A DNA stretch of 64,000 nucleotides, from the NCBI GenBank assembly GCA_020629615.1, contig JAHDCZ010000002.1, positions 1-64,000 on the forward strand, read 5' to 3'. The notes below the pieces were generated by a model that made no database searches, was not told the DNA's origin, and saw only the letters and a list, made by a program, of their open reading frames with translations. Origin of the DNA: Saprospiraceae bacterium (GTDB lineage: Bacteria > Bacteroidota > Bacteroidia > Chitinophagales > Saprospiraceae). Positions 22,594-49,280 of this stretch are shown here, piece after piece. Made by a program: the position numbers and the translations under genes. Within the stretch, counting starts at the first letter, position 1, and each line of letters begins with the position of its first letter.

Positions 22594-22647
22594 AGATCAG
22601 GTCAAAAATGTATTAGTTTATCTTTTGAAAAGAAAAGAGAAAAACTT

Positions 22648-22679
22648 TTGGCAACTACGTTTCGAATTGATTATATTTG
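22648..22679 (+). promoter_or_regulatory. Consensus Bacteroidota promoter with no ORF downstream
   Basis: TTG at 22648-22650, then 21 bp, then TATATTTG at 22672-22679. This is a complete match to TTG-N19-21-TAnnTTTG on the plus strand. The next plus-strand gene is about 700 bp away beyond a strong terminator, so the promoter probably serves the short RNA described in the next entry. Confidence 0.6.
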
Positions 22680-22684
22680 AAACA

Positions 22685-22750
22685 TCAGTCATAGGGTGTC
22701 TGTAATTTCGTTGCCTTGTCGAATCGTCATTTCGACAAGGTATTTTTTTT
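22685..22750 (+). ncRNA. Candidate small RNA of about 65 nt with intrinsic terminator
   Basis: From the predicted start, some five or six bases after the -7 box, about 29 bases of unpaired sequence lead to a perfect 10-bp stem. The arms are CCTTGTCGAA (22714-22723) and TTCGACAAGG (22731-22740), with a 7-base loop, followed by TA and eight T. No ATG-initiated frame fits inside. The 3' half is antisense to the last codons and stop of the minus-strand lipoprotein gene (ends 22727). The start point is predicted, not observed. An alternative is that the hairpin only protects the lipoprotein mRNA 3' end, but it has no T-run in that direction. Confidence 0.5.
22714..22750 (+). terminator. Strong intrinsic terminator (plus strand)
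   Basis: Perfect 10-bp G/C-containing stem with a 7-base loop and an 8-T tail, reading on the plus strand, where no protein gene lies upstream. Confidence 0.75.
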
Positions 22751-23350
22751 GCTTAAAACGGCGGTCTGCAATCTCACCGTTTGAAATCCTTTTACCTCAG
22801 GTATCTCCTCACCATTATAGATCGTATCATGGGTAGTTCTGATCGGATTAAATTTACTAGAAATAATGTCAAAGTGCATTTGATCTCCTTCTTTGTACAT
22901 CATAGACGTAATGTGTGTACCCTTAACTTCAAATTGACTAAAGAGATGTCCATTGATATAATAATGATCTAGCAGGATGGTATTCTTCTCATCGACAATA
23001 TAGTGCCCTTTTTCATCAGGTACTTCTTTAAGATAGTATTGCCGTCTTCCTGCAATGGTATCTTCGCCGTATATGATCGCCCATAAATAAGTGCCGAGAG
23101 TGTCTGTTTTTTGATGATCAAGCGCGATAGGTAGTTTTTGAGTTATACCATTCACATCGTGAATTTCAACTTCACCCTCCCAGTATCCCAGCCAATCATT
23201 TGGAAATACCACTGAGCTTTCTTTGGATTCCATTTTGTCGATTAGAATACGCTCCTTTTTTGGGATATCCTTTCGGCTACAGCCAAATAATAAAAGAGTA
23301 AACCAAAGAAAATAAAGACAACTGTCGCTTATAGATTTGTGGAATATCAT
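22727..23350 (-). CDS. Uncharacterised lipoprotein
   Basis: I do not recognise this product as a named family. From the ATG at 23350 it has 207 residues, a hydrophobic signal and lipobox TLLLFGC (Cys24), then a single compact domain rich in strands and aromatic residues (DWLGYWEGEVEIHDVNG, YYLKEVPDEKGHYIVDEKNT, HFDIISSKFNPIRTTHDT). The GYWEGE opening suggests a lipocalin-like or small barrel fold. Upstream in-frame ATGs at 23359 and 23362 are possible starts. The gene is divergent from the M1 metallopeptidase, whose promoter overlaps its 5' end. Its stop codon lies in the terminator hairpin of the candidate small RNA. Confidence 0.6.
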   Translation of the reverse strand: MIFHKSISDSCLYFLWFTLLLFGCSRKDIPKKERILIDKMESKESSVVFPNDWLGYWEGEVEIHDVNGITQKLPIALDHQKTDTLGTYLWAIIYGEDTIAGRRQYYLKEVPDEKGHYIVDEKNTILLDHYYINGHLFSQFEVKGTHITSMMYKEGDQMHFDIISSKFNPIRTTHDTIYNGEEIPEVKGFQTVRLQTAVLSKKNTLSK

Positions 23351-23367
23351 ACTTATCATCATTTTTG
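23337..23367 (+). promoter_or_regulatory. Promoter of the M1 metallopeptidase gene
   Basis: TTG (23337-23339), 20 bp, then CATTTTTG (23360-23367), one base from the TAnnTTTG consensus. The gene's ATG comes only 5 bp after this box, predicting a very short or absent leader. Confidence 0.5.
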
Positions 23368-23372
23368 TAAAT

Positions 23373-26345
23373 ATGAGAAAAATTGGATACATCTTTTCGA
23401 CCCTTGTGATTTCATTTTTTTTAAATAAAGGGGTCTGCGCTCAGCAAAACTATTTCCAACAAGGAGTACAATATGATATCAATGCGAGTATCGATTCCAG
23501 CTTGAGAATCCTTTCAGGGGAAGAATTGATACTATATCAAAACAATAGTGATGTGGCGCTTGAGGAAATATATATCCACCTTTGGACCAATGCTTTTTCA
23601 TCTAATAAGACTCCCTTTGCAGAGAATATGTTGAAGTTGGGTAATACATCATTCTATTTTGCCGATGAAGAAGAGCGAGGAGGATATCAAGAAGTTTCTT
23701 TTCGGATAGGCGGCTCGGAGGCCGAATGGGAATATTTAGAAAATCAAATCGACATTGCTAAAATATACTTATCTAAGCCTCTTCAGCCCGGATCTGAAAT
23801 TGAAATAGAGGTAAGCTTTAAGGCTAAAATTCCGAAGTTGTTTTCTAGAACGGGCTTTGATGAAGGAGATTTGCACATGACATATTGGTATCCCAAAGTG
23901 GCGGTCTATGATCAAAAGGGCTGGCACCCAATTTCTTATTATGCTCAGGGCGAATTTTATAGTGACTTTGCAAACTATAAAGTGGAGTTGAACATGCCAT
24001 CTAGTTTGACAGCGTTTGCCACAGGGAAAACAGTTTTAAGTTCGACAAATACATCGGACATGATTCGTTATAAATTTGAAGCAAACAATGTTGTTGATTT
24101 CGCTTGGTTTGCATTTCCAAAGCGACGAGTACAACAAAAAAGTTTGGCCATTAACAATCGCTCGATTATGCTTAGTGTTGTCAGACCAAAAGTAGAAGAT
24201 GAGTTATGGGATAGAGCCATGGATTATTTAATGGAGTCTGTGCAATATTATAGTGACTGGGTAGGAGAGTATCCATATGATCAATTGACCTTAATACAGG
24301 ATAAAAATCACTCAGGGATGGAGTATCCTCAGATTATAACCGCCTCTCATAAGGGGACTGCGCATAGCTTGGATTATATTATTAATCATGAAGTCGGTCA
24401 TCAGTGGTTTTTTGGTGTTCTTGGTTTTAATGAACGCGAACATGCTTGGATGGATGAAGGATTGACCACCTATGGTGAGCATCGATATACAAGAAATAAA
24501 TATGGTGTGGACGCATACACTAAAATGGTTCCTTCTTTCATGCGTGGTTCTGTGCCTGTATTACAAGCGGGGGTGGAAGGCCAAATCAAAAGACGATTTG
24601 ATCAGCCCATTTCGACGAAAGTCGAGGAAACATCAGTCTTAAATTATCTATTAAACAACTACGAGCGATCAGCCATCGCTTTTCGATATTTAGAATCGTA
24701 CTTGACTACCCAAGTATTTGATAATGCTTTGCGCTCCTTTTATGAATCATGGAAATTTAAACATCCGTATCCAGAGGATATGCAGTCCAGTTTTGAAACA
24801 TCAACGGGAAAAAATCTAGATTGGTTTTTTAAAGGCATCATCACAAGCAAAGAGGCTTATGACTACGAGTTACTTTCTGCTAAAAAAGTAGGATCAAACT
24901 ATGTGATTAAGATCAAGAATAATTCGGATATCAACGCTCCGTTAGAAATTAATGGTTTGACTGATGATGAAATCGTTTATTCTAAATGGATCGAAGGAGG
25001 TCAAGAAATGGAAGTTAAAATACCGGATGAAGGATTTGGCAAAATAGTCATTGATGCTCGTCGAATTTCTCCAGACGCTTTTAGAAAAAATAATTATACT
25101 AAGACCAAGGGATTATTCAAAAGAGTATCAAGATTTAGAATTAATCCGATTGCAAAATTAAACGAGGATGATCGTACCAATATCATCACCAATTTATACG
25201 GTGGTTTTAATACTAGTGATGGTCCATATGTCGGGTTTTCGATGTTCAATTCTTTTTGGCCTCAAAAAGATTTTAAGCGTGTGTTTGCTTTGGGTTATGC
25301 CTTTGGGTCAAAAGAGATTGTCGGGATGGGAAAAGTGAGTTATGATCAGCATTTAAAATCAAATCGATTAAAGAAGATAGAATATAAGATTGGAGTAAGA
25401 TCGTTTCATTTTGAAAACAATACTTTTTTAGATTATCGAAGAAGATACTTCAAAGTGGATCCATCCATTGCATTTCATTTTAGATCAAAAGCTACCAGTA
25501 AAACTTATAGTAAAATCATTGCAAGATCAATCCAGCTATGGAATCAAGAAGCTAGTTTTGATACGTCCGGTTTTACTGGATTGGATTATCGATATAGCAG
25601 AATAAATGAATTGAAATTTGAACATTTTAATCTCTCAACTTTAAATCCTTACACATTTAAAATTTGTCTCGAACATCAGTCCTACAAATTTGAAATATTG
25701 GATGTAACTGAAAATAGAAATTATATCAAGCTATGGGCAGAGTATGATGCGCAATTTAAGGTGAGAAAAAATTATGAAATGGGAGTCCGCTTTTTTGCTG
25801 GAGGATTTTTATTGAACTCTGAGCGGAAATCAGGTCAATACAATAATGGTTTTACAAGAGGTTCCTTTGCCTTAGCCCACGAAGGATATGATGATTACAA
25901 ATATGATGGTCACTTTGTCAACAGAAACAATCAAAATGTGAATAGCTTATACAATCAAGTTAGTTTGACAGATGGTGGCTTTAAAACCGCACTTGGAAGC
26001 CAACACAATAGATTGGATCACTCCAACGATTTGATGTTTGCTGTAAATTTAACTAGTGATTTTCCCGTGCCACTTCCAAAGGTTTTGCCGCTCAAATTAT
26101 TTGCTGATTTTGGGTACTTTACCAATGTTGCTCTTGGATCAGACGAATTAGAAGGAAATTTTCTTTATAGTGCAGGACCATATCTAGATTTTGAAATAAT
26201 ACAAATCTATTTACCGATTTTAAATTCGGAAAGCATCAATAATGTATTAGGAAATAATGAACAAACGCTTTGGAGTAAGATAAGTTTTCGCATGGATTTA
26301 CATAAGAATGATCCCTGGCAAATTATTGATGATTATAATTATTAG
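23373..26345 (+). CDS. M1-family (gluzincin) metallopeptidase with long C-terminal, possibly barrel-like region
   Basis: The 990-residue product has a signal peptide (LVISFFLNKGVCAQ) and the M1 aminopeptidase-like fold: an N-terminal beta domain and a zinc-binding HEVGHQWFF with the third ligand Glu 19 residues on (MDEGLTTYGEHRYT). The GxMEN exopeptidase loop is replaced by HSGMEYPQ, so classical aminopeptidase action is less certain. The last 400 residues have alternating hydrophobic strands ending in KISFRMDLHKND and look like an outer-membrane beta-barrel or its remnant. Start chosen at 23373; ATG 23337 would remove the promoter spacing. Function: surface or periplasmic peptidase, substrate unknown. 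Confidence 0.82.
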   Translation: MRKIGYIFSTLVISFFLNKGVCAQQNYFQQGVQYDINASIDSSLRILSGEELILYQNNSDVALEEIYIHLWTNAFSSNKTPFAENMLKLGNTSFYFADEEERGGYQEVSFRIGGSEAEWEYLENQIDIAKIYLSKPLQPGSEIEIEVSFKAKIPKLFSRTGFDEGDLHMTYWYPKVAVYDQKGWHPISYYAQGEFYSDFANYKVELNMPSSLTAFATGKTVLSSTNTSDMIRYKFEANNVVDFAWFAFPKRRVQQKSLAINNRSIMLSVVRPKVEDELWDRAMDYLMESVQYYSDWVGEYPYDQLTLIQDKNHSGMEYPQIITASHKGTAHSLDYIINHEVGHQWFFGVLGFNEREHAWMDEGLTTYGEHRYTRNKYGVDAYTKMVPSFMRGSVPVLQAGVEGQIKRRFDQPISTKVEETSVLNYLLNNYERSAIAFRYLESYLTTQVFDNALRSFYESWKFKHPYPEDMQSSFETSTGKNLDWFFKGIITSKEAYDYELLSAKKVGSNYVIKIKNNSDINAPLEINGLTDDEIVYSKWIEGGQEMEVKIPDEGFGKIVIDARRISPDAFRKNNYTKTKGLFKRVSRFRINPIAKLNEDDRTNIITNLYGGFNTSDGPYVGFSMFNSFWPQKDFKRVFALGYAFGSKEIVGMGKVSYDQHLKSNRLKKIEYKIGVRSFHFENNTFLDYRRRYFKVDPSIAFHFRSKATSKTYSKIIARSIQLWNQEASFDTSGFTGLDYRYSRINELKFEHFNLSTLNPYTFKICLEHQSYKFEILDVTENRNYIKLWAEYDAQFKVRKNYEMGVRFFAGGFLLNSERKSGQYNNGFTRGSFALAHEGYDDYKYDGHFVNRNNQNVNSLYNQVSLTDGGFKTALGSQHNRLDHSNDLMFAVNLTSDFPVPLPKVLPLKLFADFGYFTNVALGSDELEGNFLYSAGPYLDFEIIQIYLPILNSESINNVLGNNEQTLWSKISFRMDLHKNDPWQIIDDYNY

Positions 26346-36169: not shown

Positions 36170-38290
36170 ATGAGCGTCGAAACTAAAAACCTAAGAAACA
36201 TTGTCTTATTAGGACACTCGGGTAGTGGTAAAACCACTTTTGCAGAAACCATGTTGTTTGAATCAAAAGCCCTTAATAGGAGAGGAACAGTCGAATCCAA
36301 ATCTACTGTATCGGATTATACAAATATCGAGCAAGATAAACAGACCTCTTTGTTTACCTCCTTAATGCATGTAAGGTGGAAGAATTCTAAAATTAATATT
36401 ATAGACACTCCTGGTTCAGATGATTTTGTGGGAGAGGTAATATCATCTTTGAAAGTTGCGGATACCGCTTTGGTGATTTTAAATGCTGCCAACGGGGTTG
36501 AAGTGGGTACAGAATTACTTTGGGAATATGTACAGAGTTTTAATACGCCAGCCATCTTTGTTGCCAATCAGATAGATCATGATAAATCAGATTATGATGC
36601 AACTTTGGAGCAAGCTAAAGAGCGATTTGGAAATAAAGTTTTGCCATTTCAATTTCCATTGAATCAGGGGGCTGGATTTACAACCATAGTAGATGCCCTA
36701 AGGATGGTGATGTATGTTTTTCCAGAAGATGGAGGGAAGCCAGAAAAACAAGCCATTCCAGAATCAGCAATTGGTCGAGCTCAAGAAATGCACAATGCTT
36801 TAGTTGAGGCTGCCGCCGAAAATGATGAAGCTTTGATGGAAAAGTTTTTTGAAGAAGGAACCTTAAACGAAGAGGAGCTGGCATCAGGTCTTACCATTGC
36901 GTTGGCTAATCAATTAATATACCCTGTATTTTGTGCTTCAGCGACACAAAACAAAGGCAGTGGACGAATCATGGGTTTCATTAATGACATTGCTCCTAGC
37001 CCGGCTGATCGACCAGAAGCTGCTCTGGAAGATGGCGGTACTATCGCTTGTGATAAAAATGGCCCGACAACCGTTTTTATTTATAAAACATTATCCGAAC
37101 CACAAGTTGGTCAAGTCTCTTATTTTAAAGTTTATTCGGGGATCCTTTCAGCGGGTGATGAATTAGTGTGCAATCGTAATACGGAAAGAATTGCTCAGAT
37201 TTACGAGTCGAATGGAAAAATTCGGACGCAAGTCAATAGTTTGGTTGCTGGAGATATTGGCGCTACGGTAAAATTAAAACATACACATTCAAACGAAACT
37301 TTAACTGCCAAGGGAGTCGAACATAAAATTGAAAAGATTAAATTTCCTGAACCTAGAATTCGTACAGCGGTTGTACCTCCCTCAAAGGCGGATATGGAAA
37401 AATTGATGAAAGCCTTACATCAAATCGAAGCAGAAGATCCTACTTTGATCGTCGAACAATCAATACCACTTAAACAAACGATTTTACACGGACAAGGACA
37501 ATTGCATTTGGATTTGGTAAAGTATCGAATTGAAAAGGTCAACAATATCAAGATGGAATATGAACGTCCTCGTATTCCGTACAGAGAAACCATCACGCGT
37601 ATGGCAAATGATTCTTATCGACACAAAAAGCAATCGGGAGGTTCAGGACAATTTGCGGAGGTTCATATGCGTATTGAACCCTATGTAGAAAATATGCCTG
37701 CTCCAGCTGGTTTGACAGTCCGAAATACAGAAATTATTGATTTAGAATGGGGAGGGAAATTGGCTTTTTATTGGTGTATTGTTGGTGGGTCCATTGATTC
37801 CAAATATGCCAACGCAATTAAAAAAGGCATTATGCAAAAGATGGCGGAAGGACCATTGACTGGTTCGTATTGCCAAGACATAAGAGTGAGTATTTATGAT
37901 GGGAAGATGCACGCGGTGGATTCGAATGATATGGCTTTTATGATCGCCGCCTCACAAGTATTCAAATCAGCTTTTGAAAAAGCAGGTGCACAGATATTAG
38001 AACCCATATATGATGTGGATATCCTTTGTTCTGATCAAGTGATGGGTGATGTCATGGGTGATCTTCAAGGAAGACGCGCTATGATTCAAGGTATGGACGC
38101 CGAAGGGCATTACCAAAAAATATCTGCCAAAGTGCCACTGGCCGAAATGTATAAATATTCTTCAACACTTCGTTCTATAACACAAGGCAAGGCAAAATTT
38201 ACAAGAAAGTTATCTGAATTTATTCCCGTAACTCACGATATACAAAAAGCTTTAATTAGGGATTATAATTCCCAACTTCAAGAAGCATAA
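36170..38290 (+). CDS. Elongation factor G-like GTPase (FusA2-type paralogue)
   Basis: This 706-residue protein has the EF-G five-domain layout. G1 is LLGHSGSGKTTFAE. The G3 motif reads DTPGSDDFVGEV, so the His of canonical DTPGHVDF, which activates the catalytic water, is Ser. G4 reads VANQIDHDKSDY in place of NKxD. These changes match the EF-G-like (FusA2) group rather than the housekeeping EF-G. The C-terminal domains keep the IV/V features (SGGSGQFAEVHMRIEPY and EPIYDVDILCSDQVMGDVMG). It probably binds the ribosome but with altered GTPase activity. ATG 36170 fits the family start. A strong terminator follows. Confidence 0.88.
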   Translation: MSVETKNLRNIVLLGHSGSGKTTFAETMLFESKALNRRGTVESKSTVSDYTNIEQDKQTSLFTSLMHVRWKNSKINIIDTPGSDDFVGEVISSLKVADTALVILNAANGVEVGTELLWEYVQSFNTPAIFVANQIDHDKSDYDATLEQAKERFGNKVLPFQFPLNQGAGFTTIVDALRMVMYVFPEDGGKPEKQAIPESAIGRAQEMHNALVEAAAENDEALMEKFFEEGTLNEEELASGLTIALANQLIYPVFCASATQNKGSGRIMGFINDIAPSPADRPEAALEDGGTIACDKNGPTTVFIYKTLSEPQVGQVSYFKVYSGILSAGDELVCNRNTERIAQIYESNGKIRTQVNSLVAGDIGATVKLKHTHSNETLTAKGVEHKIEKIKFPEPRIRTAVVPPSKADMEKLMKALHQIEAEDPTLIVEQSIPLKQTILHGQGQLHLDLVKYRIEKVNNIKMEYERPRIPYRETITRMANDSYRHKKQSGGSGQFAEVHMRIEPYVENMPAPAGLTVRNTEIIDLEWGGKLAFYWCIVGGSIDSKYANAIKKGIMQKMAEGPLTGSYCQDIRVSIYDGKMHAVDSNDMAFMIAASQVFKSAFEKAGAQILEPIYDVDILCSDQVMGDVMGDLQGRRAMIQGMDAEGHYQKISAKVPLAEMYKYSSTLRSITQGKAKFTRKLSEFIPVTHDIQKALIRDYNSQLQEA

Positions 38291-38303: not shown

Positions 38304-38346
38304 AAAATGGTTTGTGTCAGGAGTATGTGATGCAAACCATTTTTTA
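38304..38346 (+). terminator. Intrinsic terminator after the EF-G-like gene
   Basis: Perfect 11-bp stem, AAAATGGTTTG (38304-38314) and CAAACCATTTT (38333-38343), with an 18-base loop and a T-rich 3' side. Confidence 0.65.
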
Positions 38347-39689: not shown

Positions 39690-42600
39690 ATGAGCTACAA
39701 TTTAAGGAACTACAAGGTTCTAGGGGTATCCCTATGCCTCCTTTTGAATCTGGCTTTTTGTAACCAAGCGTTAAACGCTCAGGTACAGGCCTGCCCAATC
39801 TTAGTACCTATCGAAACGACTGTACAGTCTTCGATAAGGTATTTTAATCAATTAAGTCAAAACATTTCTACAGATGAAAAAGCATGGATAAATCTTTCTG
39901 CTGCGGAGCGACAAGATGATATTTATGCTTCTGTGGAGTTATGGCCTGGAGAAAAATCTTCAGAGATCAGATTCGAACAATTTGGTTTTAATTTTCCGAT
40001 TGGTACTGCGATTGAAGGGATTGAAATTAGATTAAAAGGACATACCGATGGTCTAGAAGTGACATCAGATGTCCTTCTCCAATTACTAGATCAAGGCAAT
40101 CCTCAGGGTATGAACTTGGCCAATGGCGCCACCTATGGTACAGAATGGGCAATCGGCTCTGAGGGAGATGATGGTTCGTGGAGCTATGGAGCACCTTGGT
40201 ATCAATGGGGTGATAATTGGACAATGAATCAAATCATGGATTCCCAGTTTGGATTTCGTTTACAAGTTGAAAATACATCGGATAACGTTCAGACTGTGCG
40301 TCTGGATGAGGTTCAATTGATCGTACACTATATGCCACTTTTTTCTCTTTGTGATCATGATTGTGTCCAATTTTATGTAGACGATGCTATTGGAGCGGAT
40401 TATTATGATTGGATCATGCCGGAGGGATTTGATATTATAACTGGTCAACCGAATGAAGATATTATTAGCATTGGTGTAACCACCGCTGAACCTGGAATTC
40501 ATACCATTTGTGTACAAACAGTATCGGCAGCAGGTACATCAGCTAGTTGTTGTAGAGATTTTCTATATGATGATTGTCGACCATCTTCTGTTGGAGATTA
40601 TGTATGGTTTGATGAAAATGGTAATGGTATACAAGATGTCAATGAAGGCGGTATTGACAATGCTCTTGTACAATTGTATGATTACTATGATAATCTGGTA
40701 GCCGAAGTAAATACAGATCAAAACGGCTATTATTTATTTTCAGAAATTCAAAAAGGAGAATATTACATCAAGGTTAATTTGCCAGGATCGGATTTTATCA
40801 ATACAGAATCTAATATTGGTAATGATGATTTAGATAGCGATATCACTGGAGCTAATGGTCTAAATACTTCTGATACTTTCATTTTAAATCCAGGAGAGGA
40901 ATTAACGAATTTGGATTTTGGATTTACCAAATACAATTCAATCGCTGGTGTCACCTGGGACGACCTAAACTTAGATGGAATTCGTCAGGGTGATGAGCCC
41001 GTTTTGAGTTTGGTAAAAGTATTGTTGTTTAATGAAAGCGGAAACCAACTTGGAGAAATAGAAACTGGACTCGATGGGTCTTATAAATTTGATAATCTTT
41101 ATCCGGGAACATATCAAGTAAATATTAGTCCTTTTAAAGCTTTTGTTTTAACACAGCAAAATATTGGCTCGGAAACGACAGATAGTGACTTCAATATCAA
41201 CGGAGATTCAGAGTTGATTACTTTATCGGGAGGACTTGATTATGTAAATCTTGATGCCGGGTTTAACGAATTAGGAAGTATTGGAGATTTTGTATGGAGA
41301 GATAAAAACGGTAATGGAATTCAAGAAATAGAGGATGTTGGTCTTTCTTCAATTATATTAAATCTTTATGATGCCAATGGATTGTTGGCTTCAACAACGA
41401 CTGGAACAGATGGATCTTACAAGTTTGAAGGATTAAAAACTGGTCTGTATCAAATTCAGATTGAGGAATTACCAATAAACTATATTCCTACATTATCTAA
41501 TATCGGAGATGACAGCTTAGATAGCGATTTAGATTCTTCTGTCGGAATGTCGACTGGTATGATCAGCCTGCTTCCAGGTGAAAATAAAACAGATACGGAT
41601 TTAGGCCTTACGGAATATGGAGGTATTATTGGGCAAGTATGGAATGATCATAATTATGATGGGATACAGGGTTTTTCAGAAATACTTCTTGAAAACATTG
41701 CGGTAGATTTATATGATTTGCAAGATAATCTAATCGCATCAACAACGACTGGTGTTCAAGGTAATTACGCTTTCGCGAAGGTGTTTCCAGGTGACTATAT
41801 TGTTAAATTTAATACACCAATAGGTTATCAAATTACTTTACAAAACGTGGGTAGTGATTTAACGGATAGTGATATTGATCAATTTGGTCAAACGGGAGTA
41901 ATTAATATTATGGCTGCCCAAATGGTAAATAATATCAATGCGGGTTATATTCAATTGGGTTCAATTGGAGATTATGTTTGGTTTGATCATAACGGAAACG
42001 GGATTCAAGACGTGGGAGATAATGGTTTAGAAGGCTTAGAAGTAAATCTTATCGAGCTGAATGGGACAGTGGCCCAAACGGTTTATACAAACGCTCAAGG
42101 TGGGTATTTGTTTGAAAATGTTGTTTCCGGAATTTACTCTATCCGTTTATCCAACTTGCTCAATGGGTATATTATTACTATGCCTAACATTGGCTCGGAT
42201 GAACTTGATAGTGATTTGGATGATTCCAATGGACCATTTACAACGGCAGTTTTTGAATTGACTCCTGGAGAAGAGCTCAGAAATATTGACATGGGATTCA
42301 CTCAATTAGGATCTATTAGTGGATTGGCATGGGGAGATAAAAATGTTGACGGAAAGCGTGATCCATCAGATATAGCAATGCCTGGATTTACTGTCAGTTT
42401 GTTGAATGAAGTAGGAGAAGTGGTGGATAGTCAAACAACAGATCAAAATGGGGAATATCAATTTGAAAATGTTTTCCCAGGAAATTATTCTGTACAATTT
42501 CCGTTGGTGATCGGATTTGGTATCACGCTGCAAGATGCAGATCTAGATTTTCTTGATAGTGATATCAATTCATTCGGCTTGACCGAAATAATAAATTTAA

Positions 42601-45600
42601 ATGCCGGTGATAATATAATGAATCTAGATGGTGGATATATTGGTATGGGTAGTATTGGAGATCAAGTATTTTATGATACTAATGGAAATGGAATTCAAGA
42701 TTCTTTTGATCCCGATAATTTTAGTACCATCATGGACATTCACTTGTTTTTTAGTGATGGTACCTTATGTCAAACAGTGAGTAATGATGCCACAGGTCAT
42801 TACGCTTTCGCGAATGTTTTTCCTGGTATGTACTATCTAAGAATAGACATCACAGGTGGGTTTACTCCAACCAAAAGTAATATTGGTGGCGATAATTTAG
42901 ACAGTGATTTGGACGAATCCAATGGTCAATGGACGACAAGTACATTTAGTTTGGCAGCTGGACAAGTTGAATCCTCGATAGATATTGGTTTAACTAAAAA
43001 AGGACTTATTAAAGGAACATCATTTGTGGATATCAATGCCGACGGTATCAAACAAAATTCAGATCCGTTGATGGAAGATGTGAAAGTGACCTTGTTGGAT
43101 GAAGACAATAATGAATTAGAAGTCGATTTTCTAGAAGACGGATGTTATACCTTTGGACCATTATTTCCTGGAAATTACCAGATGCTTTTTGAACCATTGG
43201 ACAACTCTTTCATGCCTACTCTACAGGATATAGGAATAGAATTTAATGACAGCGATATTGATGAAAATGGTTTGACTGATTTGTTTTTCTTAGGACCTAA
43301 TGAAGTCATGAGTTTTTATGATGCAGGATTTTATCAGTATGGTTCAATTTCTGGAAGAATATGGGATGATATTAATGAAAACGGAATTGAAGATATTGCG
43401 GAAGAGGGATATCCAAATATTGTTGTTCATTTGGTGAATACTGACGGACAAATTGTTCAGACGACGGATTCAGATGAGAATGGAGAATATTCATTCGAAA
43501 ATGTGACTCCTGGTACTTATACTGTTCGATTAGAATTAGATGATTATATCGCTATATCAAATCCTAACGTGGGCCCCGATGATACGGTAGATTCTGATTT
43601 CATTTCACTAACGGATAATGTCGCAAGATCTGAAGAACTTACTGTTCAATCTGGAACCCTCTATGCAGATTTTGATGGGGGCATTTATTTAGATGACCAG
43701 GGTTCAATTTGTGGGTTGATTTGGGAAGATGTAAATTATGATGGTCTACGTCAAGACACAGAACCTTTAATTACATCAGCCTTTGTATCTGTTCGTTTAT
43801 TTACAGAGGATGATATTGAAGTGGCGATTCAAACAACAAACACAGGATCCTATTTGTTTGAAGATCTTTCACCCGGTAATTATTATGTAAGTTTTCAATC
43901 GGAAACTATGATGGATTTCACTATTCCTAATGCAGGAGATGAAGACATTGATTCCGATGTTGATGAATTAAATGGCATTGGAACGACCGATATTTTGAAA
44001 CTAGATCCTAAAGAAAAAATCGATCATGTGGATGCAGGGTTTTATCGGTATGGTTCAATTTCTGGTAGGATATGGGATGATATAAATGAAAACGGAATTG
44101 AAGATATTGCAGAAGATGGTTATCCAAATATTGTTGTTCATTTGGTGAATACTGACGGACAAATTGTTCAGACGACGGATTCAGATGAAAATGGAAATTA
44201 TATATTTGAAAATATTACTCCAGATAGCTATACGATCCAATTAGAATTAGATGATTATATCGCTATTTCAAATGCCAATCAAGGTCTCGATGAAACTGTA
44301 GATTCTGACTTTATTTCATTAGCAAATAACATTGCAATTTCTAATGAAATATCAATAGAATCGGGAAGTCAAATTACAGATGTAGATGGGGGCATTTATT
44401 TAGATAACCAAGGTTCTATTTGTGGTGTGATATGGGAAGATTTAAATTACGATGGTCTTCGTCAAGACACAGAACCCTTAATAACATCACAGTTTGTTTC
44501 TGTTCGCCTTTTTACAGAGGATGATGTTCAAGTAGCTATTCAAACAACGAATACCGGATCCTATGTATTTGAAGATCTTCCTCCAGGTAATTATTATGTA
44601 AGATTTCTTTCGGAGATGATGATGAGTTTTACAATTCCAAACGCTGGGGATGATACGATTGATTCTGATATTGATCAATTAAATGGTTTGGGTACTACAG
44701 ATATTTTAAAATTAGATCCGAAAGAAAAAATCGATCACGTAGATGGAGGGTTCTTTTCATTTGGATCCATTTCCGGTGCAGTTTGGTTTGATGAAAATTG
44801 TAATGGCGAACAAGATTTTACTGAGCTTTTAGTAGAAGGTGTAGAAGTTGTTCTATTGAATGGTCAGAATCAAATCGTTCAGTCGACCTTCACAAATAAT
44901 GAAGGTAAATATGCTTTTGTATCCTTGGTTCCGGATTTCTATACCATCAATTTTATTTCTCCGGATGGACAATCTTTTACTCAAGAATTTGCAACCAATG
45001 ATACAGAGAGAGATTCTGATGTCGTTGGAATTGTAGATAATGTTGGATCTACAAACATTTTAGAATTACAATCTGGTACTAGCTTTAGTTTTATTAATGC
45101 GGGATTGAAAAATATTACCAAAATTTCTGGTTTGTATTGGAATGATGTCAATTGTAATGGTGTCAATGACAATGAGGGTGGCGTCTTTAATGTTGAAGTT
45201 AGTCTCTATAGTTCGGATAATTCTTTAATCGAATCTGTGTTCACTAATAACTTTGGATTTTATGAATTTGAGAATTTCCCATTAGGAAATTATTATGTTG
45301 AATTCGCTAAGCCAAGTGATTTTGAATTTACTATTTCTGGGGCAGGTGGTGATCCAAGTCTGGATTCGGACGTGATAAATGAAACTGAAGACAGCGGTAC
45401 GACCGCAATAGTTGAAATCAGCATTGGAAATGAGCAAGTCGAATTAGATGCGGGGATAAAAGCAGTTCCAGACGATATTATCATTTCTGGTTTAGTCTGG
45501 ATGGATCAAAATTGTAATGGAATTAGAGATGGTAATGAATCTGTTCTCTCGAACACGACGGTAACATTATTGAACGATTTAGGTGAAGAAGTTTTGACAA

Positions 45601-48600
45601 CACAAACTGGAGATTTTGGTGAATACCTCTTTGAAGGAATGGATCCAGGGATGTATCAGGTAGCATTTGAACTTCATGTTACGATGATTTTTACAGATTA
45701 TTTTATCGGTACAGACCAATCAATCAACTCCGATGTTGAAAATGGGGAAATGGGGACTACTCCTTTTTATTCTTTGGATGCAGGAGATAGTCTAGAAAAT
45801 ATCGATGCTGGATTAAAGAATGTCGTGAATAATATATTGCAAGGAATGGTATGGCTCGATGAAAATTGTAATGGATTGATGGATCCAGATGAGCCTGGTA
45901 TTCAGGGAGTAGGTGTAAATGTTTATGACCTAGATGGCAATACCGTATCGTCCGCAATTACGGCATTATCTGGACAGTACTTCATGATCGGTTTATTTGA
46001 CGGGGACTATATATACGAATTTGTTCCTCCTAGCGGCTATAATTTTACTGAATCTAATATTGGGACTAATGATGAAATAGATTCGGATGTTGTAAACATA
46101 TTAAACGGAATTGGGACAACAGAAAATGTTTCTATTGGTGTAAATCAGAACATTAACGACGTGGATGCAGGACTTAAAGCTAAAGATCCTATAGAAGTAA
46201 GTGGCTTAGTTTTTATAGATGAAAATTGTGATGGACAATTTAATAATAATGAATTGCCAGTCGAAGGGATAAATGTAGTGTTGGTCGATATGAATGAAAT
46301 GCCTCAAGCACAAACAACAACGGATTCATCGGGGTTTTACAAATTTACCGATTTGTCAGAGGGGTCTTACATGGTAATGTTTGAGTTAATCGACGGATTT
46401 AAATTTACAATCGCTAATATAGGTGATGATAATAACGATTCTGATGTTACCACCATGACTGCATTGGGAGGAAGGACAGACGAGATTGTTTTAACGGAAG
46501 AACAACAATTGAATACTGTTTTTGCCGGAATCAAGTTGTTGGATGAAATTACAATTTCTGGAAGTGTTTGGAATGATCTTAATTGTAATGGACTAAATGA
46601 TATTGATGAACCAACCATGATGAACATTGATGTTAATCTATTGGATGACATGGGGGGCATCATTAATACAGATCAAACGGATGATCAAGGCAATTATAGT
46701 TTTAATGGCATGCTTCCCGGAGATTACCAAGTGCAGTTTGTACTTAGTGATGGTTATGAGTTTACTTTGGCACAACAAGGAACAAATAATTCAATTGATT
46801 CTGATGTGATCAATATTAATGGGACAGAAGGGACTACAGATATTTTCTCGCTTGTAGAAGAAGATCAGTTGATAAATATTGATGCGGGTTTTAAAGCCGT
46901 CACCTTTATTAATATAAATGGAACTGTTTGGGAAGATATCAACGGAAACGGATTGAGAAATATGGACGAGATGGGAGAGCCCGGAATTACGGTAGAGCTC
47001 TATGATGTGAATAATGTTCTTCAGGATTCTGATATTACAGATAATATGGGGAATTATAGTTTTTCAGATTTTCCTCAAGGGACCTATTATGTGGTGGTCG
47101 TATTACCTACCGGATCTGAGATGACTTTAGCAAATCAAGGGACTAATGATTTAATTGATTCCGATATCACCAGTGCCGTAGTAACTAATTCTTCCGAATT
47201 GATCAATAGTTCGATACAACAATTAGATGCGGGCTTCTTTTATTTAGGTTCAATTGGGGACTTTGTGTGGTCAGATAATAATGGAAACGGGATACAAGAT
47301 GATGGAGAAGAAGGAATTAACGCCTTGACTGTTAGATTGTTTGATATTAATGGAAATGTGGTTGGTACTAAATTTACGGGAGGTGTTTTTTCTCCTGATG
47401 GAGAATATCTATTCACGGACTTAGCTCCGGGATTCTATTATGTAAGTCATATTCCAACAGGCGGTATGTTGTTTGCACCTCCAAATGTTGGTACAGATGA
47501 TACAATTGACTCTGATATTAATTCTGCCAATGGATTTGGTACTTCGCATACGATTACGCTTCTATCAGGAATGGATGATAGATCTGTTGATATCGGCCTT
47601 ATTCAAGAGCCTGGCTCTGTGGGAGATCGTGTATGGTTAGATGTTAACGCGGATGGAATTCAGGATCCGGATGAAATAGGAATCAATGACGTTCTTGTTA
47701 CTCTTAAATCTGAATCGGGCAATTTTGTAGCCTCTACCGTAACAGATTTTAATTCTGATGGAGAAATGGGGTATTATAGCTTTGAAAATATTCAACCTGG
47801 ATCATATTATATTGTGTTTACAGTTCCAGTAGGATACTTAATTTCACCAGTCGATCAGGGTGGAAATGATACTCAAGATTCTGACTTAACCAGCGGTATG
47901 GAATTTGGATCAACCAATATTTTTAATTTAAGTGCAGGCGAAAATGATGAAGATGTCGATGCTGGATTTTTTATTCCTGCGGGATTGGGAGATTTTGTTT
48001 GGAATGATTTAAATCAAGATGGCATACAAGATGCTGATGAACCAGGTGTTCCAAATGTAGTAGTCAACTTACATGCGTTTAACGGAGCTTTCATCATGTC
48101 AACTGAAACGGATGCCAATGGAGAATATAGTTTTCCATTTCTAGCTCAGGGAATTTATTTTATTTCTGTTGTTCCACCGGCGGGCATGCAATTTTCTCCT
48201 GGTGATCAAGGAGGAGATGATACCAAAGATTCTGATGTCGACCCTACAGGTACCTCTGGAACTGTAGTACTAGCACATGCCGTTGTTTTTAATGATCTTG
48301 ATGTTGGACTCGTTCCATCAAATACGATGCTTGGCTTGAGAGTATGGTATGATGAAGATGGTGACGGAAAAAGAGATGCCGATGAATTAGGAATGGAAGG
48401 GGTGGATGTTCAATTAATGAATTCTTCAGGTACAATGGTTTATGAGACTACTACTAATATCGCAGGGAAATATATTTTTGATAATATTCCTAGTGGTACT
48501 TATTATGTGCATGTTGAAAAACCTGATGGTTATGAATTTACTGAGATTAATCAAGGAGGAAATGATGATTTTGATAGTGATTTTGACATGTCAGGAAATT

Positions 48601-49241
48601 CGGTATCCTTAATAATTAATCCAGGTACCCAAATCATGAATATAGATGCTGGTCTAGTAGATGAAGAAAATATCATTCCGAATGATTGGGAAGACTTATT
48701 GTTATCATTTAACGCTAAAAAGATTCCATCGATTCATAGATTGGATTGGGATTTGAATGAGGATTATGAAATTACTTCTCTACAAATTCAGCGAAAGCTG
48801 AATAGTAATGATTTTGAAACATTATCCATTATAGATGAACCTATGTTTTATCAGGGTGAATTTGATGATCTCGATATTTCGACAGAAGGAGAATATACTT
48901 ATCGGTTACAAATCGTAACGGTCAACAAATCTGTCCTATATAGTCAGGAAAAAATGTTGGCAGTACATACAGATATTGAAAAGAGTCAGCTCAGTATGTA
49001 TCCAGTTCCGGCCATCAATACTGCAACATTAGAATTGAAGCTGGTAGAACCAAGCACTGTTTCTTGGATTGTATATAATGCATCAGGAAAAGTAGTTCTT
49101 CAGAAGAAACTATTCAATCGACAAAATACAGGTGTACATTATTATCCTATAGATGTCAAGCATTTGACTCCAGGAAATTACTATGTAAAAGTCCAGTTAG
49201 AAAGAGAAAGTTTGTTTTATAATATTTCGATTAATAAGTAG
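39690..49241 (+). CDS. Giant T9SS-secreted SdrD_B-repeat surface protein
   Basis: The 3183-residue product has a signal peptide ending LNAQ, then a 180-residue N-terminal beta domain and a Cys-containing PKD-like domain (to about residue 298). Twenty-three SdrD_B/Cna_B-like repeats of about 115-120 residues follow, from about 299 to 2990. Each opens with a calcium-loop-like motif such as VWFDENGNGIQD and later has GxYxFxxxxPGxYxV and a D-S-D segment. Repeats 13-18 have NCNG or NCDG in the loop. The C-terminus (LSMYPVPAINTATLELKL ... LTPGNYYVKVQL) is a T9SS type A sorting domain. It is probably a calcium-stabilised cell-surface adhesin or stalk; adhesion itself is inference. Repeats 9-10 and 11-12 are a recent duplication. 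Confidence 0.93.
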   Translation: MSYNLRNYKVLGVSLCLLLNLAFCNQALNAQVQACPILVPIETTVQSSIRYFNQLSQNISTDEKAWINLSAAERQDDIYASVELWPGEKSSEIRFEQFGFNFPIGTAIEGIEIRLKGHTDGLEVTSDVLLQLLDQGNPQGMNLANGATYGTEWAIGSEGDDGSWSYGAPWYQWGDNWTMNQIMDSQFGFRLQVENTSDNVQTVRLDEVQLIVHYMPLFSLCDHDCVQFYVDDAIGADYYDWIMPEGFDIITGQPNEDIISIGVTTAEPGIHTICVQTVSAAGTSASCCRDFLYDDCRPSSVGDYVWFDENGNGIQDVNEGGIDNALVQLYDYYDNLVAEVNTDQNGYYLFSEIQKGEYYIKVNLPGSDFINTESNIGNDDLDSDITGANGLNTSDTFILNPGEELTNLDFGFTKYNSIAGVTWDDLNLDGIRQGDEPVLSLVKVLLFNESGNQLGEIETGLDGSYKFDNLYPGTYQVNISPFKAFVLTQQNIGSETTDSDFNINGDSELITLSGGLDYVNLDAGFNELGSIGDFVWRDKNGNGIQEIEDVGLSSIILNLYDANGLLASTTTGTDGSYKFEGLKTGLYQIQIEELPINYIPTLSNIGDDSLDSDLDSSVGMSTGMISLLPGENKTDTDLGLTEYGGIIGQVWNDHNYDGIQGFSEILLENIAVDLYDLQDNLIASTTTGVQGNYAFAKVFPGDYIVKFNTPIGYQITLQNVGSDLTDSDIDQFGQTGVINIMAAQMVNNINAGYIQLGSIGDYVWFDHNGNGIQDVGDNGLEGLEVNLIELNGTVAQTVYTNAQGGYLFENVVSGIYSIRLSNLLNGYIITMPNIGSDELDSDLDDSNGPFTTAVFELTPGEELRNIDMGFTQLGSISGLAWGDKNVDGKRDPSDIAMPGFTVSLLNEVGEVVDSQTTDQNGEYQFENVFPGNYSVQFPLVIGFGITLQDADLDFLDSDINSFGLTEIINLNAGDNIMNLDGGYIGMGSIGDQVFYDTNGNGIQDSFDPDNFSTIMDIHLFFSDGTLCQTVSNDATGHYAFANVFPGMYYLRIDITGGFTPTKSNIGGDNLDSDLDESNGQWTTSTFSLAAGQVESSIDIGLTKKGLIKGTSFVDINADGIKQNSDPLMEDVKVTLLDEDNNELEVDFLEDGCYTFGPLFPGNYQMLFEPLDNSFMPTLQDIGIEFNDSDIDENGLTDLFFLGPNEVMSFYDAGFYQYGSISGRIWDDINENGIEDIAEEGYPNIVVHLVNTDGQIVQTTDSDENGEYSFENVTPGTYTVRLELDDYIAISNPNVGPDDTVDSDFISLTDNVARSEELTVQSGTLYADFDGGIYLDDQGSICGLIWEDVNYDGLRQDTEPLITSAFVSVRLFTEDDIEVAIQTTNTGSYLFEDLSPGNYYVSFQSETMMDFTIPNAGDEDIDSDVDELNGIGTTDILKLDPKEKIDHVDAGFYRYGSISGRIWDDINENGIEDIAEDGYPNIVVHLVNTDGQIVQTTDSDENGNYIFENITPDSYTIQLELDDYIAISNANQGLDETVDSDFISLANNIAISNEISIESGSQITDVDGGIYLDNQGSICGVIWEDLNYDGLRQDTEPLITSQFVSVRLFTEDDVQVAIQTTNTGSYVFEDLPPGNYYVRFLSEMMMSFTIPNAGDDTIDSDIDQLNGLGTTDILKLDPKEKIDHVDGGFFSFGSISGAVWFDENCNGEQDFTELLVEGVEVVLLNGQNQIVQSTFTNNEGKYAFVSLVPDFYTINFISPDGQSFTQEFATNDTERDSDVVGIVDNVGSTNILELQSGTSFSFINAGLKNITKISGLYWNDVNCNGVNDNEGGVFNVEVSLYSSDNSLIESVFTNNFGFYEFENFPLGNYYVEFAKPSDFEFTISGAGGDPSLDSDVINETEDSGTTAIVEISIGNEQVELDAGIKAVPDDIIISGLVWMDQNCNGIRDGNESVLSNTTVTLLNDLGEEVLTTQTGDFGEYLFEGMDPGMYQVAFELHVTMIFTDYFIGTDQSINSDVENGEMGTTPFYSLDAGDSLENIDAGLKNVVNNILQGMVWLDENCNGLMDPDEPGIQGVGVNVYDLDGNTVSSAITALSGQYFMIGLFDGDYIYEFVPPSGYNFTESNIGTNDEIDSDVVNILNGIGTTENVSIGVNQNINDVDAGLKAKDPIEVSGLVFIDENCDGQFNNNELPVEGINVVLVDMNEMPQAQTTTDSSGFYKFTDLSEGSYMVMFELIDGFKFTIANIGDDNNDSDVTTMTALGGRTDEIVLTEEQQLNTVFAGIKLLDEITISGSVWNDLNCNGLNDIDEPTMMNIDVNLLDDMGGIINTDQTDDQGNYSFNGMLPGDYQVQFVLSDGYEFTLAQQGTNNSIDSDVININGTEGTTDIFSLVEEDQLINIDAGFKAVTFININGTVWEDINGNGLRNMDEMGEPGITVELYDVNNVLQDSDITDNMGNYSFSDFPQGTYYVVVVLPTGSEMTLANQGTNDLIDSDITSAVVTNSSELINSSIQQLDAGFFYLGSIGDFVWSDNNGNGIQDDGEEGINALTVRLFDINGNVVGTKFTGGVFSPDGEYLFTDLAPGFYYVSHIPTGGMLFAPPNVGTDDTIDSDINSANGFGTSHTITLLSGMDDRSVDIGLIQEPGSVGDRVWLDVNADGIQDPDEIGINDVLVTLKSESGNFVASTVTDFNSDGEMGYYSFENIQPGSYYIVFTVPVGYLISPVDQGGNDTQDSDLTSGMEFGSTNIFNLSAGENDEDVDAGFFIPAGLGDFVWNDLNQDGIQDADEPGVPNVVVNLHAFNGAFIMSTETDANGEYSFPFLAQGIYFISVVPPAGMQFSPGDQGGDDTKDSDVDPTGTSGTVVLAHAVVFNDLDVGLVPSNTMLGLRVWYDEDGDGKRDADELGMEGVDVQLMNSSGTMVYETTTNIAGKYIFDNIPSGTYYVHVEKPDGYEFTEINQGGNDDFDSDFDMSGNSVSLIINPGTQIMNIDAGLVDEENIIPNDWEDLLLSFNAKKIPSIHRLDWDLNEDYEITSLQIQRKLNSNDFETLSIIDEPMFYQGEFDDLDISTEGEYTYRLQIVTVNKSVLYSQEKMLAVHTDIEKSQLSMYPVPAINTATLELKLVEPSTVSWIVYNASGKVVLQKKLFNRQNTGVHYYPIDVKHLTPGNYYVKVQLERESLFYNISINK
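41768..41779. repeat. Palindromic 12-mer element, copy 4
   Basis: CGCTTTCGCGAA in the fourth repeat of the giant protein gene, read Y-A-F-A-K where most sister repeats have Y-x-F-E-N or similar. Confidence 0.65.
42803..42814. repeat. Palindromic 12-mer element, copy 5
   Basis: CGCTTTCGCGAA in the seventh repeat of the giant protein gene, at the equivalent place as copy 4 and read Y-A-F-A-N. Confidence 0.65.
43341..44762 (+). repeat. 711-bp tandem duplication inside the giant gene
   Basis: Copies 43341-44051 and 44052-44762 each encode two SdrD_B repeats (237 codons) and keep frame exactly. A 68-base run is identical (43410-43477 and 44121-44188), while the second half of each first repeat has diverged. 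This marks a recent expansion compared with the other repeats. Confidence 0.85.
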
Positions 49242-49248
49242 GGTTTTA

Positions 49249-49280
49249 AAGCCGGGTTGTTGTAGCAACTCGGCTTTTTT
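49249..49280 (+). terminator. Intrinsic terminator of the giant repeat protein gene
   Basis: Eleven-base-pair stem AAGCCGGGTTG (49249-49259) / CAACTCGGCTT (49266-49276) with one G-U pair and a 6-base loop, continuing into a run of six T. Confidence 0.85.

Follow-up and report, generated by a model that had tools for sequence, protein, structure and literature searches.

GibS (BTnc035) of Bacteroides thetaiotaomicron is a small RNA whose conserved single-stranded 5' seed pairs at start-codon regions (PMC7366714). The candidate RNA described here shares several features with it: both are encoded between genes in Bacteroidota, both have a promoter to themselves (a predicted one here), the 5' part of both is highly conserved, and both end in an intrinsic terminator (PMC7366714). 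On the other hand, GibS is a Bacteroides RNA of ~145 nt that has two hairpins in its middle part and targets that have been verified, whereas the Saprospiraceae RNA is a predicted transcript of ~65 nt, and neither Rfam nor a phylum-wide model gives a match that links the two. Rfp18 of Flavobacterium psychrophilum is comparable in the sense that it is conserved within one Bacteroidota lineage and has been proposed to pair with mRNA (PMC9723704); however, its pairing region is the third stem-loop, it has been linked to protease expression, and the two RNAs, compared here by description, differ in architecture and host lineage.

The locus lies in a 64,000-nt stretch of Saprospiraceae DNA (the whole of which is referred to as the window). 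Its parts, and what each assignment is based on, are the following:

22647-22650, plus strand: -33-type promoter element TTTG (sequence; position relative to the -7 box)
22672-22679, plus strand: -7 box TATATTTG, a perfect match to the Bacteroidota sigma-A consensus TAnnTTTG (sequence; spacing in homologues)
22684-22749, plus strand: predicted small RNA of ~65 nt (start from the -7 box, end from the T-run; covariance-model match at 22684-22748)
22686-22702, plus strand: weak 5' hairpin, CAG/CTG, that encloses the core (covariation)
22688-22700, plus strand: near-invariant 13-nt core GTCATAGGGTGTC, a putative seed (the same in almost every one of 41 distinct homologues)
22712-22742, plus strand: terminator hairpin of 12 pairs (one of them G-U) with a 7-nt loop (terminator scan, fold, covariation)
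22743-22750, plus strand: T-run (T8) of the intrinsic terminator (sequence)
22727-23392, minus strand: convergent lipoprotein-like gene with no Pfam match, its last codons in the hairpin

This arrangement very probably represents a new, previously uncatalogued RNA family, albeit one of a known kind. The initial annotation could not assign it to a known family by eye, and Rfam 15 agrees: neither the window nor any of 15 homologous loci gives a match at the gathering score, and permissive settings return chance-level matches only (best E 0.62). The 64 kb window contains no tRNA or tmRNA. The core sequence is absent from the main texts of the open-licence papers searched, and a literature search for Saprospiraceae together with small RNA brought up no paper on the topic.

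Conservation of the segment extends well beyond the genus. Besides a second genome from its own genus (91% identity), a DNA search of 40 relatives located it in two further genera. Of 248 family genomes searched with a covariance model built on four sequences, 40 contain a match at E<1e-3; they are distributed over 20 of the 112 genera searched (the genus count is a lower bound, as diverged copies may be missed, and E-values of such short-calibrated models are rough). With a second model, built on 38 sequences, the search took in 348 genomes at order level and 345 at phylum level, and strong matches are found only inside Saprospiraceae; the covariance search in other Bacteroidota that had been suggested at the outset thus yields strong matches across Saprospiraceae genera and none beyond. 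Weak matches outside the family were treated as chance terminators, the core being mostly missing from them. Finally, a pattern scan that took one genome from each of 84,980 species produced 40 hits, every one of them titled Saprospiraceae or Saprospirales, the named records among them being metagenome-assembled genomes throughout. By these comparisons the RNA appears to be common to dozens of Saprospiraceae species and is apparently confined to that family.

Strong matches are single-copy, and a 121-bp query around the candidate has one match in its own genome. A Bacteroidota REP-like repeat had been considered (the hairpin contains GTCATTTCGA) and was ruled out, the element being present once in the window; a phage-borne element was likewise rejected, viral contigs having given no hit for the RNA. 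Two further loci hold possible diverged copies in which an altered core is followed by a terminator hairpin: L045 at 1501-1558 (G131; core ATCATAGGTTGTC) and L193 near 1518 (G009; core TCATAGTGTGT).

Exceptions to the core sequence among the homologues include GTCATAGGGTATC (L034) and ATCATAGGGTGTC (L036 and L037). A further homologue, at L038 1523-1589 (G056), has its core altered to GTCTAGGGCGGTC with the remainder kept; if a pairing partner exists, that partner may have changed in step. The homologues come in two forms, distinguished by what follows the core. In the short form (25 distinct sequences including the window) this is CTGTAA or similar, and the promoter is directly upstream. In the long form (16 distinct sequences) it is CCATAG; in most long forms the best -7-like box is located ~56-67 nt before the core and an extra CTATGG...GTTC...GAAC segment is present, which suggests a transcript of ~120 nt. 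The CTATGG of the long form is predicted to be able to pair either with CCATAG or with the CATAGG of the core. Folding of the long-form 5' hairpin is on average slightly better than that of shuffles (mean z -0.9).

The 5' hairpin of the window has 3 pairs only, and that of homologues has up to 6. For the short form, the stem has a covariation score of 0.184 (0.123 when shuffled, at most 0.050 when slid), with 80.6% of cells paired and three pairs changed on both sides. The comparison of sequences thus appears to support this stem, but more weakly than the terminator stem. In the predicted fold the near-invariant core is largely within a weak loop, and is predicted to be accessible in the manner of a seed.

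On the plus strand, TTG at 22648-22650 is followed, after 21 nt, by the -7 box. The distance between box and core is fixed in short-form homologues (mean score 5.2 out of 6, where 1000 shuffled sets reach 3.96 at most). The TTG-N21-box promoter sequence proposed in the initial annotation is present and its box spacing is kept. In Flavobacterium the TAnnTTTG box occupies positions -12 to -5 (PMC9723704); placing the -7 box accordingly puts the start at ~22684. Together with the T-run this gives the ~65-nt transcript that had been predicted from the start. We infer from these sequence signals that the candidate RNA is transcribed and where it begins and ends. The predicted transcript folds with z = -5.0, it contains no ATG, and its loop lengths differ by 1-2 nt among homologues.

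The terminator stem is paired in 100% of the sequences counted and 4 of its 9 pairs are changed on both sides; its covariation is well above shuffled and slid controls, though the alignment had been fitted to the structure, a bias towards this result, and included three reverse-strand partial rows. The annotated hairpin and its eight T residues are there as described, except that 12 pairs are counted in place of 10. The central proposal, a small RNA gene with a promoter and a terminator of its own, is strongly supported by conservation across genera, by covariation of the terminator stem and by the conserved -7 box: the predicted promoter has TATATTTG at conserved spacing, and the intrinsic terminator combines the 12-pair hairpin, T8 and a covarying stem. 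Sequence comparison establishes the gene, its parts and its conservation, and we regard the site as almost certainly a real RNA gene.

How unusual the arrangement is within the window depends on the stringency of the scan. A generic sigma-70 and terminator scan of the 64 kb found 47 promoters against 38 expected and 6 terminators against 5.8 expected, and in it the candidate site is not outstanding. The stricter scan found three strong terminators against 0.05 expected (20 simulated windows), and the pair of a TAnnTTTG box with a strong terminator occurs once in the window, at the candidate site only, against 0 in 20 simulated windows. The other two strong intrinsic terminators of the window (there are no more) are at 38307-38345 and 49251-49280, both on the plus strand. 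The former is ~20 nt behind an elongation-factor-G-like ORF that ends at 38290. The latter is behind a giant repeat ORF ending at 49241 (39690-49241, plus strand; 3183 aa), which has many repeats of the type GxVWxDxNxNGxxDxxExG and, judged by eye, resembles an SdrD-B-like secreted repeat protein that has a sorting-type domain at its C terminus.

The near-chance counts of the generic scan are what one would expect of a promoter-like and a terminator-like sequence that stand together by accident and have no function. A chance arrangement is excluded, however, because the RNA is conserved in other genera, and it is also contradicted by the covariation, by the conserved promoter spacing and by the restriction to one family; this reading is barely conceivable. 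A cis-regulatory leader (a riboswitch or attenuator acting on the gene that follows) would account for a structured segment that runs straight into an intrinsic terminator, and at some loci an M1 peptidase gene does start in the same orientation, ~100-150 nt further downstream. But in the window and in many homologues the next gene is convergent, which leaves no gene to control, and elsewhere the identity of the downstream gene varies or there is none on the RNA strand. The label of riboswitch is unwarranted because its defining feature, a same-strand downstream gene, was looked for and is not there consistently; we consider a leader very improbable. Upstream of the RNA are a gene of the inositol-monophosphatase family and a family-2 glycosyltransferase gene (both by Pfam), separated in some genomes by a gene that we take, from its sequence, to be galE. 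Downstream come the convergent lipoprotein-like gene and then the M1 peptidase gene, and these two are kept side by side in many Saprospiraceae loci.

The convergent gene raises the question of a cis-antisense RNA that would control it by pairing with its 3' end, one of the two modes of action that the initial annotation had put forward. The overlap is real in the window, where the complementary stretch, 22727-22750, covers the final codons and the stop codon of the lipoprotein gene, and at about 7 of ~20 homologous loci with a recognised lipoprotein gene the stop codon is comparably placed, inside the hairpin or beyond. At the remaining lipoprotein-bearing loci, on the contrary, the gene ends further off or reaches the T-run only, and several loci keep the RNA and lack the gene altogether. 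Moreover, the strongest constraint is on the 5' core, which in the window is outside the overlap. Being inconsistent across loci, the overlap is probably a by-product of tight packing. An antisense function, very improbable in our estimate, does not follow from it, and to speak of an antisense RNA for this gene is unwarranted because a kept overlap, the defining feature, was sought across the loci and is missing from most of them. The lipoprotein gene is a neighbour and is not thought to be part of the proposed system. Another possibility is that the RNA works as a decoy, scaffold or 6S-like modulator by binding a protein or a stable RNA, with the core as the recognition site. That the core is near-invariant over 20 genera and yet no long complementary mRNA site is conserved speaks for such a partner; against this, the mRNA search was limited to exact 10- and 11-nt complements, and imperfect or shorter seeds are possible. 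We hold this reading as a tentative second choice.

The reading that fits best is that of a trans-acting base-pairing RNA, for which we would put the probability at roughly 0.55; it is suggested by the architecture and by analogy with GibS, and action in trans is favoured because no constant gene is found downstream on the RNA strand. In the proposed sequence of events, a housekeeping-type (TAnnTTTG) promoter would start the ~65-nt transcript at ~22684 and the intrinsic terminator would end it at ~22749. The weak 5' hairpin would present the near-invariant 5'-UCAUAGGGUGU-3', with a short linker and the terminator hairpin following. The core, presumably a pairing seed, would then base-pair in trans with one or more mRNAs and, like GibS in Bacteroides, might change how well they are translated or how stable they are.

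The target searches covered exact 10-nt and 11-nt complements of the core, and base-pairing small RNAs often use seeds of 6-10 nt. Across 25 carrier genomes there are 48 occurrences of ACACCCTATGA, the exact 11-nt complement, roughly half of them being the RNA gene itself, compared with ~42 of its reversed control, and the sites inspected are mostly inside coding regions. Exact core complements of either length are not enriched relative to the reversed control, and neither length revealed a sense-strand site at a start codon that orthologues share. With the 10-nt complement, one orthologue pair has a common site, on the antisense strand; a start-codon match to the exact core complement is found in a single genome (G173, L126). 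The mRNA of the M1 peptidase was tried as a target and rejected: its duplex with the RNA is good in the window (z about -3), and the mean z is about 0 over 25 loci, the window being counted twice.

The two forms of the RNA allow a more elaborate, and rather unlikely, proposal: that the core of a Saprospiraceae-wide RNA recognises a conserved protein or stable RNA, and that the long form (~120 nt, in one lineage) can hide or expose it. If that were true, the RNA would be a global riboregulator peculiar to this lineage and would carry its own switch, made of two exclusive pairings, of CTATGG with CATAGG or with CCATAG.

Reading raw sequence for a promoter together with a terminator can, as this locus illustrates, reveal a conserved RNA family that is missing from Rfam. 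Saprospiraceae are common in aquatic environments and in wastewater sludge, and the core is a motif that could be sought in existing metatranscriptomes. A single-copy RNA whose 13-nt core extends across 20 genera would offer an entry point into post-transcriptional control in the Saprospiraceae.
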